Positions 1 to 26,461 of a stretch of DNA of 64,000 nt are shown in pieces (position 1 is the first letter of the stretch; the number at the start of each line of letters is the position of its first letter). Below the pieces are notes generated by a model, which saw nothing but the letters and a program-made list of their open reading frames with translations, did no database searches and had not been told where the DNA came from. The stretch is from Pseudoxanthomonas suwonensis. Its GTDB lineage: Bacteria; Pseudomonadota; Gammaproteobacteria; Xanthomonadales; Xanthomonadaceae. The stretch lies in contig NZ_PDWP01000009.1 of assembly GCF_010093235.1 (NCBI RefSeq), positions 1 to 64,000 of the forward strand, read 5' to 3'. Both the position numbers and the translations under genes were made by a program.

Positions 1-160
1 TGTGTGTAGTAGTGTGGTGTGATTGGTTTTTTTCCAAGAGTAAGACGGGAGACAAGATGCTCAGGAGGCGCGGGGGCTGGGAGATGTGTTGAAGAGACAG
101 GGCAATGGCGGGGGTCCTGGCTTTGGGGGGGGGTAGCCTACCTACTGGTAGGTAGAATGA
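1..160. other. low-complexity window/contig start, no gene
   Basis: The first ~160 bases are G/T-rich, with runs such as tgtgtgtagtagtgtggtgtg and a run of nine or more G. They are unlike the roughly 70% GC coding DNA that follows. No frame here resembles a protein. The first recognisable gene ends at position 161, immediately after this stretch. The composition looks like poor-quality read ends at a contig boundary rather than biology, but this is inference from composition only. Confidence 0.6.
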
Positions 161-1014
161 TCAAGTGGCGGGCGCGGTGGCCTGGCTGTCGGTCGAGCGG
201 GCAAGGGGCTCCCATTGCGACCACTCCTGCTGCAGCCGGGCCAGCTTGTCCCGGACCAGGCCAAGCGCATCGCTGCCCAGGAGCAGGTGCAGGGGCGGCG
301 CGTCGCTGTCGACCACCTCCAGCAGCGCCCGGGCTGCCCTGGCGGGATCGCCCGGCTGGCGGCCACTGGCGGCCTGGCGGCGCTGCCGCACCGGATCGAA
401 CAGTGCGTCGTAGTCGCTGATGTGGCGGGGAGTCCGGGTCATCGAGCGCACGGCCCAGTCGGTGCGGAACGAGCCCGGCGCCACGGCGGTGACGTGGATG
501 CCGAGGTCGCGTACTTCGCTGGCCAGGGCTTCGCTTATGCCCTCCAGCGCGAACTTGCTGCCGCAGTAGTAGGCGATGCCGGGCATGGTGATGAATCCGC
601 CCATCGAGGTGATGTTGAGGATGCGACCGCGGCGCCGGCAACGCATGTGCGGCAGCACCGCCTTGATCATCGCGACCGCGCCGAACACATTGACCTCGAA
701 CTGGCGGCGCAGCTCCTCCAGCGGAGATTCCTCGAGGATGCCCTCGTGGCCGTAGCCGGCGTTGTTTACCAGCACCTCCACCGGACCGAGGCTGCTTCCA
801 CCTCCGCGACCATCGGATCGATGGCGGCGGTGTCGGTGACGTCGAGCAGGCGGGCGTGGGCATGGCCGGGCGCCAGGCGCTCGAAGGCCTCGGCATCGGC
901 CTGCCTGCGCACCGTGCCCAGTACCCGCCGGCCCGAGGCCAATGCGTGTTGGGCGAAAGCAGGTCCCAGGCCGCTGCTTGCGCCTGTGACGAGGATCAGT
1001 CCTTCTGTAGCCAT
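161..1014 (-). pseudogene. SDR-family NAD(P)-dependent oxidoreductase, single-base frameshift
   Basis: This is a classical short-chain dehydrogenase/reductase, restored to about 284 residues if one base is added. Starting at ATG 1014, the N-terminus has the cofactor motif VTGASSGLG (residues ~9-17). The frame then breaks near 790: the DNA reads GCAGCCTC where GCAGCCCTC would give the expected A-A-L-G-P-V. In the next frame the family motifs NNAG (~residue 81), catalytic Ser (ITSMGG) and YxxxK (YYCGSK) continue to the TGA at 161. All active-site residues survive, so only the missing C stops production. It is divergent from an AraC regulator 89 bp away, a common pairing in which the regulator controls the SDR. 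It may be a sequencing error or a recent pseudogene. Confidence 0.85.
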
Positions 1015-22290: not shown

Positions 22291-25074
22291 ATGAAACGCC
22301 TCATCCTGATCGACGGTTCCAGCTACCTCTACCGCGCCTTCCACGCGCTGCCGCCGCTGACCAATGCCGCCGGCGAGCCCACCGGCGCGCTGTTCGGCGT
22401 GGTCAACATGCTGCGGGCCACGCTCAAGGAGAAGCCCGACTACGTGGCCTTCGTGGTCGATGCGCCGGGCAAGACCTTCCGCGACGACCTCTACCCCCAG
22501 TACAAGGCCAACCGCCCGCCGATGCCCGACGAGCTGCGCGCCCAGGTGCAGCCGATGTGCGACATCGTCCACGCGCTGGGCATCGACATCCTGCGCGTGG
22601 AGGGGGTCGAGGCCGACGACGTGATCGGCACCCTGGCGACCCGGGCCGCCGACGCCGGCATGGAGGTCACCATCTCCACCGGGGACAAGGACTTCGCCCA
22701 GCTGGTGCGGGCACCGGACGGCAACGGTGGCGGCTCGATCGCCCTGGTCAACACCATGACCGGCAGCCGCATGGATTCGGACGCGGCGGTGATCGACAAG
22801 TTCGGCGTGCCGGCTTCGCGCATCGTCGACCTGCTGGCGCTGATGGGCGACGCCATCGACAACGTCCCCGGCGTGGAGAAGTGCGGTCCCAAGACCGCGG
22901 CCAAATGGATCGGCGAATACGGTTCGCTGGAGGGCGTGATCGCCGCGGCCCCGGGCATCAAGGGCAAGATCGGCGAGAACCTGCGCGCGGCCCTGGACCG
23001 CCTGCCGCTCAACCGCGAGCTGGTGACCATCCGTACCGACGTGCCACTGGAACAGGGACCGGAGGCGCTGGTCCTGCGCGAGCGCCATGTCGACCAGCTG
23101 CGCGAGCTGTATGCCCGCTACGGCTTCAACCAGGCCCTGCGCGAGCTGGAAGGCGGCGCGGTCGCCGGCGAGGTGGCGGAGAAGGAGCCCGGGCGCGCCC
23201 GTTCCTCCGGATTCGCCACGGCCTCCGCGGTGGCGCCCGAGGGCCTGGATCCGGCCCTGGCCGCGCCCGGTCAGTACGAGACCATCACCACGGCCGGACA
23301 GCTGCAGGCCTGGATCGACGCCCTGCGCGCCGCCGGCGGCTTCGCCCTGGACACCGAGACCGACAGCCTCGACCCGATGCGCGCGCGCCTGGTCGGCCTG
23401 AGCTTCGCCGCCGAACCCGGCCGCGCGGCCTACCTGCCGCTGGGCCACGACTACCCGGGCGCGCCGGCGCAGCTGGACCGCGAGCAGGCCCTGGGCCTGC
23501 TGCGCCCGCTGCTGGCTGATCCGTCCGTGCGCAAGCTCGGCCAGCACGGCAAGTACGACCTGCACGTGCTGCGCCGGCACGGCGTGCCGGTGGCCGGCTA
23601 CGCCGACGACACCCTGCTGGAGAGCTTCGTGCTCGATTCCGGCAACGCCCGCCACGACATGGACAGCCTGGCCCTGCGCCACCTGGGCTACACCACGGTC
23701 AAGTACGAGGACGTGTGCGGCAAGGGTGCAAAGCAGATCCCGTTCTCGCAGTGCGCGCTGGACGACGCCACCCGCTACGCCGCCGAGGACGCCGACATCA
23801 CCCTGCGCCTGCACCGCGTGCTGTCGGCGCGCCTGCAGGCCGAGCCGCAGCTGCAGGCCGTGTACCGCGACATCGAGATGCCGCTGGTGCAGGTGCTGGA
23901 ACGGATCGAGGCCAACGGCGTGCTGGTGGACATGGAGGAGCTGCGCCGGCAGAGCGCGGACCTGTCGCGGCGCATGCTGGAGGCCCAGGAGCGCGCCACC
24001 GCGCTGGCCGGGCGCACCTTCAACCTGGACTCGCCCAAGCAGCTGTGCGCGCTGCTGTTCGACGAGCTGAAGCTGCCGGCGCTGGTGAAGACGCCCAAGG
24101 GCCAGCCCTCGACCAACGAGGAGGCGCTGGAGGCCATCGCCGACCTGCACGAGCTGCCGCGGATCATCCTCGAGTACCGCGGCCTGGCCAAGCTGCGCAG
24201 CACCTACACCGACAAGCTGCCGGAAATGGTCAACCCGGAGACCGGACGGGTGCATACCAGCTACCACCAGGCCGGCGCGGCCACCGGCCGGCTGTCCTCG
24301 TCCGATCCGAACCTGCAGAACATCCCGATCCGCACCGACGACGGCCGCCGCATCCGCCGCGCCTTCGTCGCGCCGCCGGGGCGCAAGCTGATCGCCTGCG
24401 ACTACTCGCAGATCGAGCTGCGGATCATGGCCCACCTCTCGCAGGACGCCGGCCTGCTGCGCGCGTTCGCGTCCGGCGCCGACATCCACCGCGCCACCGC
24501 GGCGGAGGTGTTCGGCCGGCCGCTGGAGGAAGTGACGGTCAACGAACGCCGCGCGGCCAAGGCGATCAACTTCGGCCTGATGTACGGCATGGGCGCATTC
24601 GGCCTGGCGCGCCAGCTGGGCATCGACCGCGGCCAGGCGCAGGACTACATCGCCCTGTACTTCAGCCGTTACCCGGGCGTGCGCGACTACATGGAGCGCA
24701 CCCGCGAGCAGGCGCGCGAGCGCGGCTTCGTCGAGACCGTGTTCGGCCGCCGCCTGCACCTGGAGGCGATCAATTCGCGCAACGCGGCGCAGCGCGCCGG
24801 CGCCGAGCGCGCGGCGATCAACGCGCCGATGCAGGGCACGGCGGCGGACATCATCAAGCGGGCGATGATCACCGTGGATGCCTGGCTGGCCGGGCATGCC
24901 GGGCGCGCCCGCATGCTGCTGCAGGTGCACGACGAACTGGTGTTCGAAGCCGACGAGGATTTCGTGCCGGTACTGGTGGAGAACGTGCGTGGGCTGATGT
25001 CTTCGGCGGCCGAGCTCAGCGTCCCTCTGGTCGTCGATACCGGTATCGGATGCAACTGGGACGAGGCCCATTGA
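22291..25074 (+). CDS. polA: DNA polymerase I PolA
   Basis: Repair and Okazaki-fragment polymerase with three domains in 927 residues. Residues ~1-290 are the 5'-3' exonuclease (DGSSYLYRAFHALP, VEGVEADDVIGTLA and ALMGDAIDNVPGV). Residues ~330-520 are the 3'-5' proofreading domain with the DxE motif intact (FALDTETDSLDPMR). Then comes the polymerase domain: motif A CDYSQIELRIMAH, motif B RRAAKAINFGLMYGMGAFG and motif C QVHDELVFE. Length is normal. Transcription probably starts at the ATG itself (TAGAAT 6 bp upstream). An sX13-like small RNA gene lies directly downstream, as in Xanthomonas. Confidence 0.98.
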   Translation: MKRLILIDGSSYLYRAFHALPPLTNAAGEPTGALFGVVNMLRATLKEKPDYVAFVVDAPGKTFRDDLYPQYKANRPPMPDELRAQVQPMCDIVHALGIDILRVEGVEADDVIGTLATRAADAGMEVTISTGDKDFAQLVRAPDGNGGGSIALVNTMTGSRMDSDAAVIDKFGVPASRIVDLLALMGDAIDNVPGVEKCGPKTAAKWIGEYGSLEGVIAAAPGIKGKIGENLRAALDRLPLNRELVTIRTDVPLEQGPEALVLRERHVDQLRELYARYGFNQALRELEGGAVAGEVAEKEPGRARSSGFATASAVAPEGLDPALAAPGQYETITTAGQLQAWIDALRAAGGFALDTETDSLDPMRARLVGLSFAAEPGRAAYLPLGHDYPGAPAQLDREQALGLLRPLLADPSVRKLGQHGKYDLHVLRRHGVPVAGYADDTLLESFVLDSGNARHDMDSLALRHLGYTTVKYEDVCGKGAKQIPFSQCALDDATRYAAEDADITLRLHRVLSARLQAEPQLQAVYRDIEMPLVQVLERIEANGVLVDMEELRRQSADLSRRMLEAQERATALAGRTFNLDSPKQLCALLFDELKLPALVKTPKGQPSTNEEALEAIADLHELPRIILEYRGLAKLRSTYTDKLPEMVNPETGRVHTSYHQAGAATGRLSSSDPNLQNIPIRTDDGRRIRRAFVAPPGRKLIACDYSQIELRIMAHLSQDAGLLRAFASGADIHRATAAEVFGRPLEEVTVNERRAAKAINFGLMYGMGAFGLARQLGIDRGQAQDYIALYFSRYPGVRDYMERTREQARERGFVETVFGRRLHLEAINSRNAAQRAGAERAAINAPMQGTAADIIKRAMITVDAWLAGHAGRARMLLQVHDELVFEADEDFVPVLVENVRGLMSSAAELSVPLVVDTGIGCNWDEAH

Positions 25075-25204
25075 CCGCGTTGTTCACGGCCTTTTTACAG
25101 AATCTTCTGATTTCAGCGGTTACCGCGCGAAAAGCACTGAATCCGGCATAAATATCCGCCCAAACACGGGGTCTTCTTCACGAAACATCAATGTCTCCCG
25201 TGCT

Positions 25205-25210
25205 TACATA
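25205..25210 (+). promoter_or_regulatory. putative -10 box of sX13-like sRNA
   Basis: TACATA lies 6 bp before the first hairpin of the small RNA; it matches the consensus at four of six positions. No convincing -35 is visible at the proper distance. The transcript start would be at about 25216. Confidence 0.4.
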
Positions 25211-25215
25211 ACCCT

Positions 25216-25340
25216 CGACAGGTGCAACGCCTGTCGCGGATCTCTCCCTTCCCCTGGAGCAGATCTACTGGAACGAAGGCTCCTCCCCAAGCCGTCGTTC
25301 CCCGGCCCCGCCAACCTCCCCCTGGTTGGCGGGGCTTCTT
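25216..25340 (+). ncRNA. sX13: sX13-like small regulatory RNA
   Basis: The ~400-bp gap after polA holds no gene but shows three consecutive hairpins. First: cgacagg/cctgtcg (25216-25236). Second: ggaacga/tcgttcc (25270-25301) with ggc/gcc continuation and loop TCCTCCCCAA. Third: gccccgccaacc/ggttggcggggc (25305-25335) with loop TCCCCCT, followed by ttctta, an intrinsic terminator. The two C-rich loops are complementary to Shine-Dalgarno sequences. Xanthomonas sX13, an ~115-nt regulator of virulence genes that acts by C-rich loops, lies downstream of polA, so position, length and structure agree. The name rests on that knowledge, not on an alignment. Confidence 0.8.
25305..25340 (+). terminator. 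terminator of sX13-like sRNA
   Basis: Perfect 12-bp stem gccccgccaacc / ggttggcggggc with a 7-nt C-rich loop, followed by ttctta. It forms the third hairpin of the sRNA and also ends any polA read-through. Confidence 0.8.
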
Positions 25341-25480
25341 ATTTCCGGCCCCATGGAACGTGGCCCGGAACATGCCCGGGCACAGCGCGCCGGACGACCC
25401 CATCGTCCGGCGCATCCGTTCCGTGGAACCGGATTCCCTCCGGCGGCCGCAGGCCGCCATCCCCTATCCCCTGGCGATGC

Positions 25481-26461
<981 letters not shown>

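Follow-up and report, generated by a model that had tools for sequence, protein, structure and literature searches.

The closest described relative of the locus examined here is sX13 of Xanthomonas (Rfam family RF02232), an RNA of about 115 nt that lies downstream of polA and folds into three hairpins with C-rich loops, ending in a terminator. In the parts of PMC3771888 drawn on here it is described as an abundant small RNA when measured in Xanthomonas, as a repressor of mRNAs with G-rich motifs that does not need Hfq, and as occurring only in the Xanthomonadaceae. The same source, dated 2013, left open whether related RNAs exist at the polA locus of other bacteria, and names ar7 of the alphaproteobacteria as polA-linked. 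The Pseudomonas RNA Pseudomon-1/ErsA (RF01719) acts with Hfq, unlike sX13 (PMC3771888), and depends on AlgU/sigma22 according to the part of PMC8395346 consulted. Two further RNAs come into the comparison, anti-hemB of Burkholderia (RF02837) and Spot 42 of E. coli K-12 (RF00021). The sX13, anti-hemB and ErsA families are shown in Rfam without a clan.

The DNA analysed (the window) is a stretch of 64,000 nucleotides from Pseudoxanthomonas suwonensis, in which an earlier reading of the sequence alone (the original prediction) had placed an sX13-like small RNA after polA. The covariance search against Rfam that it proposed as a check gave a match to RF02232 at 25226-25341 on the plus strand, covering model positions 1-115 of 115 with 112.2 bits (E 9.9e-21 for the whole window). 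This is 62 bits above the gathering cut-off of 50 bits, and it was the sole Rfam match at gathering within the whole window. The genome of the window contained one RF02232 copy over the cut-off; three more matches of 13-16 bits were taken as noise. The features of the locus are as follows.

22291-25074, plus strand: polA, DNA polymerase I, the upstream neighbour (NF004397, 1148 bits; TIGR00593, 892 bits)
25176-25193, plus strand: CTTCACGAAACATCAATG, an upstream element positioned where a -35 region would lie; kept in 63 distinct family sequences with the consensus tCTTCACGAaCcaTCaATG
25201-25212, plus strand: TGCTTACATAAC, the presumed -10 region, where the family has the consensus TGGTcatATA
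25216-25236, plus strand: 5' hairpin of 9 bp, CGACAGGTG-CAA-CGCCTGTCG, spanning the accepted RNA start at 25226 (stem scores, window fold)
25226-25341, plus strand: sX13 small RNA (RF02232 match, 112.2 bits)
25238-25266, plus strand: hairpin 1, loop CUUCCCCU at 25248-25255 (fold, covariation)
25270-25301, plus strand: hairpin 2, loop CCUCCCCA at 25282-25289 (fold, covariation)
25304-25336, plus strand: hairpin 3, a terminator-like hairpin read as the intrinsic terminator, loop UCCCCCU at 25317-25323, T-rich tail from 25337 (fold, terminator search, covariation)
25481-26425, minus strand: hemF, oxygen-dependent coproporphyrinogen oxidase, the convergent downstream neighbour (NF003727, 440 bits; PF01218, 419 bits)

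The fold of 25226-25346 had an energy of -59.4 kcal/mol, compared with a mean of -35.8 kcal/mol for shuffled sequences (z -7.43), and none of 200 shuffles was as low. A terminator search returned two overlapping sites at the third hairpin and its T-rich tail where 0.2 were expected, which agrees with the three successive hairpins, the last terminator-like, of the original prediction. Its description of the loops was correct but incomplete: the two loops that it named, those of hairpins 2 and 3, are C-rich, while that of hairpin 1, CUUCCCCU, went unmentioned although the fold of 25214-25346 gave C-rich loops on all three hairpins, in agreement with the 4C/5C loops of sX13. The 9-bp 5' hairpin at 25216-25236 was likewise absent from it. 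The doubt that it raised over a weak -10 box is in keeping with the promoter search of 25070-25500, which found none of sigma70 type. The locus differs from sX13 of Xanthomonas in its convergent neighbour, hemF, and in loop 1, where several relatives have CAUCCCCU in place of the sequence seen here.

In a sample of 149 genomes of the Xanthomonadaceae, RF02232 had a match at E<=0.001 in 142 and one over the cut-off in 113, and 7 genomes had no match. The predicted position after polA held both in the window, where the polA stop at 25074 lies 151 nt upstream of the match, and across the family, where polA was upstream on the same strand in 65 of 70 fetched loci and hemF convergent downstream in 49 (each within 2.5 kb). 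The five family loci without polA comprised two copies in one genome (L037 and L038), two in another (L070 and L071) and one at a contig end (L065). RF02232 also matched 26 of 151 searched genomes from the other families of the order, six over the cut-off. Among 20 loci fetched from 18 of those 26 genomes, polA was upstream in 14, mostly at less than 400 nt (1.1 kb in L088, about 2 kb in L081 and L082); it was absent from L078, L089, L092 and L093, and L075 and L087 end at contig ends.

Conserved, covarying structure was present among sister species, as the original prediction would have it. A covariance model built from 13 family sequences (R1) gave 74 matches in the 72 loci submitted to it, and in the alignment of these 74 sequences 31 of 34 pairs had changed on both sides. 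Of all cells, 93.4% paired, compared with 37-55% when partners were slid by 1-3 columns; here, as in the second alignment described below, the sequences are fitted to the structure and the pairing figures lean towards it. RNAalifold on a plain MAFFT alignment of 57 sequences gave only 14 pairs because the stems were misaligned, and it was replaced by the covariance alignments.

Membership by sequence and structure, synteny, covariation, the terminator-like last hairpin, conservation of the element upstream and a 5' hairpin with covarying arms, described below, together make it very likely that this organism's sX13 is encoded here, as a regulator that acts in trans and has a promoter of its own 3' of polA. 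As sX13 is already known in Xanthomonas and its relatives, the single RNA is ordinary and its annotation alone would be routine; the comparison of genomes addresses the question of 2013 on RNAs at the polA locus, and suggests a family wider than has been described.

A second model, R2, was trained on the 74 R1 matches, all of them sX13. It matched 209 of 299 genomes of the order at E<=0.001 and, among 274 genomes from the GTDB class Gammaproteobacteria, 60 at E<=0.01, three of these in the window's family. Outside the family 57 genomes were thus R2-positive, and the position of polA could be determined in 55 of them. Among class matches of at least 30 bits, 27 of 40 lay within 1.5 kb after polA on its strand, where none would be expected at an assumed chance of 0.00025 per match; 12 of the 40 were not within 1.5 kb of polA, and one further genome had no polA match. 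Weaker matches were linked in 6 of 25 cases. The 40 class loci had polA upstream in 26 and engB downstream in 24, and in six of them none of polA, hemB, engB, the two-domain cytochrome c gene or hemF was found within 2.5 kb (L100 and L132 end at contig ends). The second alignment held 51 matches from 47 of 48 loci, L283 giving none; all 34 of 34 pairs had changed on both sides, with 88.8% of cells paired and 35-51% in the slid controls. It left out five of the 40 class loci (L106, L112, L126, L130, L132), three of ten RF02837 loci (L134, L136, L138) and 34 of 40 polA flanks, which came from the following comparison.

Eighty-six class genomes had neither an R2 nor an RF02837 match in the initial searches. 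polA was found in 78 of 80 tried, and 40 polA 3' flanks were fetched, three of them shortened by contig ends. engB was present in seven of these flanks. With filters off and E<=0.1, R2 matched all seven flanks with engB and only two of the 33 without (Fisher p 1.9e-6; p 4.8e-5 if L281, whose match is on the other strand, is taken as negative). The two positive flanks without engB were L285, which is ErsA, and L293, a weak match of 12.8 bits. In L281 the match (87-188, minus strand) lies between polA and engB on the strand opposite polA, as if the RNA gene had been inverted. In a phylum-wide search at E<=0.001 R2 matched 28 genomes of 299, and 16 of the 28 lie outside the class. Of 22 loci checked, 16 from outside the class, not one had polA, hemB, engB, hemF or the cytochrome gene within 1.5 kb. 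In this sample, the linked RNA family does not extend beyond the class. The phylum search also shows that unlinked R2 matches near 30 bits are unreliable and often background.

Several additional copies were observed. Four successive R2 matches follow polA in L094 (1501-2245, minus strand), and tandem pairs occur in L050 (2501-2788) and L073 (1501-1864, minus strand). Second copies away from polA were found in two genomes of genus g98, from another family of the order (L089, 1501-1620, minus strand; L092, 2494-2621, plus strand); these have two C-rich loops, and their first hairpin lacks one. A second R2 match of 39.7 bits in genome G010 of the window's genus (L112/L353) has two hairpins with CUCCC loops and adjoins none of polA, hemB, engB and hemF.

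The anti-hemB model RF02837 matched 88 of 185 class genomes at E<=0.001, nine of 185 over its cut-off. In genomes covered by both searches, R2 matches coincided with RF02837 on the same strand in 26 of 44 cases (24 of 38 genomes), and in 19 of 26 of those of at least 30 bits; L133 is over the RF02837 cut-off where R2 matches. R2 in turn found eight of ten RF02837 loci. When 13 chosen class loci were compared with all of Rfam at E<=0.5, RF02837 matched in 12 and RF02232 in seven, and those seven matched both. A further set of at least 120 named stretches was collected by an exact pattern of the shared first hairpin, and is biased for that reason; among the matches listed it consisted mostly of betaproteobacteria, with some Ectothiorhodospiraceae, Steroidobacteraceae and other gammaproteobacteria. 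Of these stretches 80 were analysed: divergent hemB was upstream in 54, polA in eight, and convergent engB downstream in 48, in the loci listed often followed by a two-domain cytochrome c gene. None of polA, hemB, engB and cytochrome c was found in ten of the 80, many stretches ending near the RNA. R2 gave 37 matches in 35 of the 80 at E<=0.01 and missed 45.

As engB lies downstream in both forms, it is the common neighbour of the polA-linked and hemB-linked RNAs, and the common slot can be written as polA or hemB - RNA - engB. At intermediate class loci the sX13 and anti-hemB models match one place; the engB side of the slot is common to both and the promoter partly so. They differ in that anti-hemB usually follows hemB rather than polA, and that RF02837 was absent from the 22 Rfam matches of the window at E<=10. 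RF01719 was absent from them as well, and the link therefore runs through the intermediate loci.

A conserved inverted repeat surrounds the 5' end of the Rfam sX13 model, the end itself falling in the loop. Stem scores of at least 6 were obtained at 68 of 70 family loci (8.95 expected), 12 of 20 loci of the order's other families (2.4 expected) and 23 of 39 class loci (4.15 expected), the expectations coming from shuffles that, here and for the promoter scores, keep base composition only. The arms co-vary between lineages, as in CGACAGG/CCTGTCG, CAACGGA/TCCGTTG and GGATGC/GCATCC. An alternative is that the dyad is a DNA operator for a repressor and that the RNA begins at 25226 as in Rfam. The accepted 115-nt RNA does begin within the dyad, and the 5' region is termed unstructured in the portion of PMC3771888 used here, but the arms change jointly and keep no fixed sequence, which is what RNA pairing would lead one to expect. 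The presumed -10 region also sits where a start at about 25216 would require it, and we regard the operator as unlikely. With the dyad read as an RNA hairpin, the start of the Rfam model seems to lie about 10 nt too far downstream, and transcription would begin about 10 nt upstream of it, at the 5' hairpin, from a predicted start.

The consensus GGAACTT-N14-17-GTCTAA, which we take to represent a sigmaE-type promoter, was sought only after the upstream sequences had been viewed. Scores of at least 10 of 13 were found in 29 of 38 class loci (1.05 expected), 17 of 19 loci of the order's other families (0.4 expected) and seven of ten RF02837 loci (0.35 expected). In the named loci listed the count was 32 of 76 (2.7 expected) over a longer stretch and 17 of 76 (2.45 expected) over the first, shorter one. 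Between the end of the promoter and the RNA start lay 15-16 nt in 15 of the 19 loci from the order's other families, and 6-19 nt in 34 of the 38 class loci. At most loci outside the window's family, then, the RNA of the polA-engB slot seems to have a sigmaE-like promoter. The window's own family fits poorly, with such scores in only nine of 70 loci compared with 2.35 expected, and sigmaE control of sX13 would for this reason be read from position. An RpoE model matched above its cut-off in all 11 of 11 genomes searched, that of the window included.

The L285 locus scored 121.3 bits with RF01719 and had been missed by the first R2 search. Like sX13 it follows polA and has a C-rich terminator loop; R2 scores 27.1 bits across the RNA, and TGAACTT-N16-GTCATA lies upstream. 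Unlike sX13, its hairpin 2 aligns poorly to R2, and engB was not found in its 1.5-kb flank. Spot 42 occupies the same slot in the same order and orientation (polA - spf - yihA/engB), but R2 scores only 14.3 bits, aligns at the ends and meets no C-rich loops; RF00021 was not among the 22 Rfam matches of the window at E<=10, and homology of Spot 42 with sX13 is not claimed. The record of E. coli Spot 42 (L264, 3400-3510) also annotates a small protein, SpfP, inside it. Among alphaproteobacterial RNAs, ar14 (RF02344) matched the window at 25232-25341 on the plus strand with 35.5 bits (E 3.9e-5 for 406 bases), below its cut-off of 58.8, and Atu_C7 matched the same interval with 27.5 bits; ar7 (RF02342, cut-off 60) gave a weak match at class locus L103 (E 0.11). 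The ar14 and Atu_C7 matches hint at a wider group of C-loop RNAs, whereas no linked R2 match occurred outside the class among the loci checked.

These comparisons lead us to favour, with some reserve, a reading in which sX13, anti-hemB and Pseudomon-1/ErsA descend from a single ancient regulatory RNA of the Gammaproteobacteria (in the GTDB sense, which includes the betaproteobacteria). The ancestral place would be polA - RNA - engB, the promoter of sigmaE type, and the body a 5' hairpin followed by hairpins with C-rich loops that mimic an anti-Shine-Dalgarno sequence. hemB would have replaced polA in the Burkholderiales, engB would have left the slot in the Xanthomonadaceae, and Spot 42 would either have replaced this RNA in the slot or be an extremely altered descendant that still occupies it. 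The lineage would join sX13 with anti-hemB and probably also with ErsA, and sX13 would seem to be a branch of an RNA that is older and belongs to the polA-engB slot. Alternatively, the similarity of RNAs outside the order to sX13 is due to convergence on C-rich loops or to chance. In favour of this are the background terminators that R2 also picks up, the 16 genomes outside the class matched at E<=0.001 with none of 22 checked loci linked, and the 12 of 40 class matches of at least 30 bits away from polA. The window's own lack of an RF01719 or RF02837 match at E<=10 and the alignment of Spot 42 at its ends only would also agree with it. Against it stand the 27 of 40 matches placed after polA on its strand, the 7 of 7 engB-bearing flanks against 2 of 33 others at either p value, the sigmaE-like promoter and 5' hairpin common to both sides, and the 7 of 13 class loci at which RF02232 and RF02837 meet, and we give it a minor chance. 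In openly licensed PMC texts, mostly seen as listings, no report was found of one polA/engB-slot lineage joining sX13, anti-hemB and ErsA, and no paper naming sX13 together with ErsA; two of the texts contain both sX13 and a term that starts with hemB. If the common lineage is correct, targets and regulation known in one group would become direct hypotheses for the others, and the increase of sX13 reported for high salt, 37 C and minimal medium (PMC3771888, in part) would fit a sigmaE-type stress RNA.

The C-rich loops may base-pair with Shine-Dalgarno or enhancer motifs that are rich in G, on several mRNAs, and so lower their translation, and hfq is probably among the mRNAs bound. In the Xanthomonas experiments reported in the consulted parts of PMC3771888, reporters were repressed only if the mRNA had its G-rich motif and sX13 had particular loops; an hfq fusion was repressed through a 4G motif, and loop 2 was required for the XCV3927 and hfq fusions. 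The hfq ribosome site has a GGGG, with its first G at -9 to -13, in 16 of 16 genomes from the genus of the window, and in the window's genome AGGGGGAG of hfq is fully complementary to CUCCCCCU at 25316-25323, in loop 3. This is consistent with regulation of hfq by sX13 but falls short of proof, because the 16 genomes are close relatives, the best complement here is loop 3 whereas Xanthomonas needed loop 2 and not loop 3 for hfq, and compensatory mutations did not restore regulation there (PMC3771888, in part). GGGG was found at that place in none of eight genomes from the order's other families, and since at least seven of the eight have an R2 match, hfq is not a universal target; in one genome the hfq start could not be located. 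A reading of the C-rich loops as a sponge for G-rich RNAs or a protein, rather than as blockers of individual ribosome sites, would suit loops that are short, near-identical and repeated. It would suit too the reports that nucleotides flanking the target motifs are not conserved in Xanthomonas and that compensatory mutants regained no regulation; the dependence of reporter repression on the mRNA motif and on particular loops makes it highly improbable (PMC3771888, in part).

That the locus is a mere polA 3' untranslated region with its terminator, the other hairpins serving no separate function, is scarcely credible: it does lie on the strand of polA with no intervening gene, a terminator-like end and no sigma70-type promoter found, but against this stand the covariation of the three hairpins and the conservation of their C-rich loops, an upstream element that is conserved and distinct from polA, copies with no polA nearby (L037, L038, L070, L071), related RNAs that sit after hemB, and the abundance of the small RNA measured in Xanthomonas (PMC3771888, in part). 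Directly 3' of the sX13 gene, at 25354-25419 on the plus strand, a sub-threshold match to Xoo2 (RF02241), another small RNA of the Xanthomonadaceae, was observed with 26.9 bits (cut-off 45; E 0.0028 for 406 bases), and the hairpin at this place has a C-rich loop.
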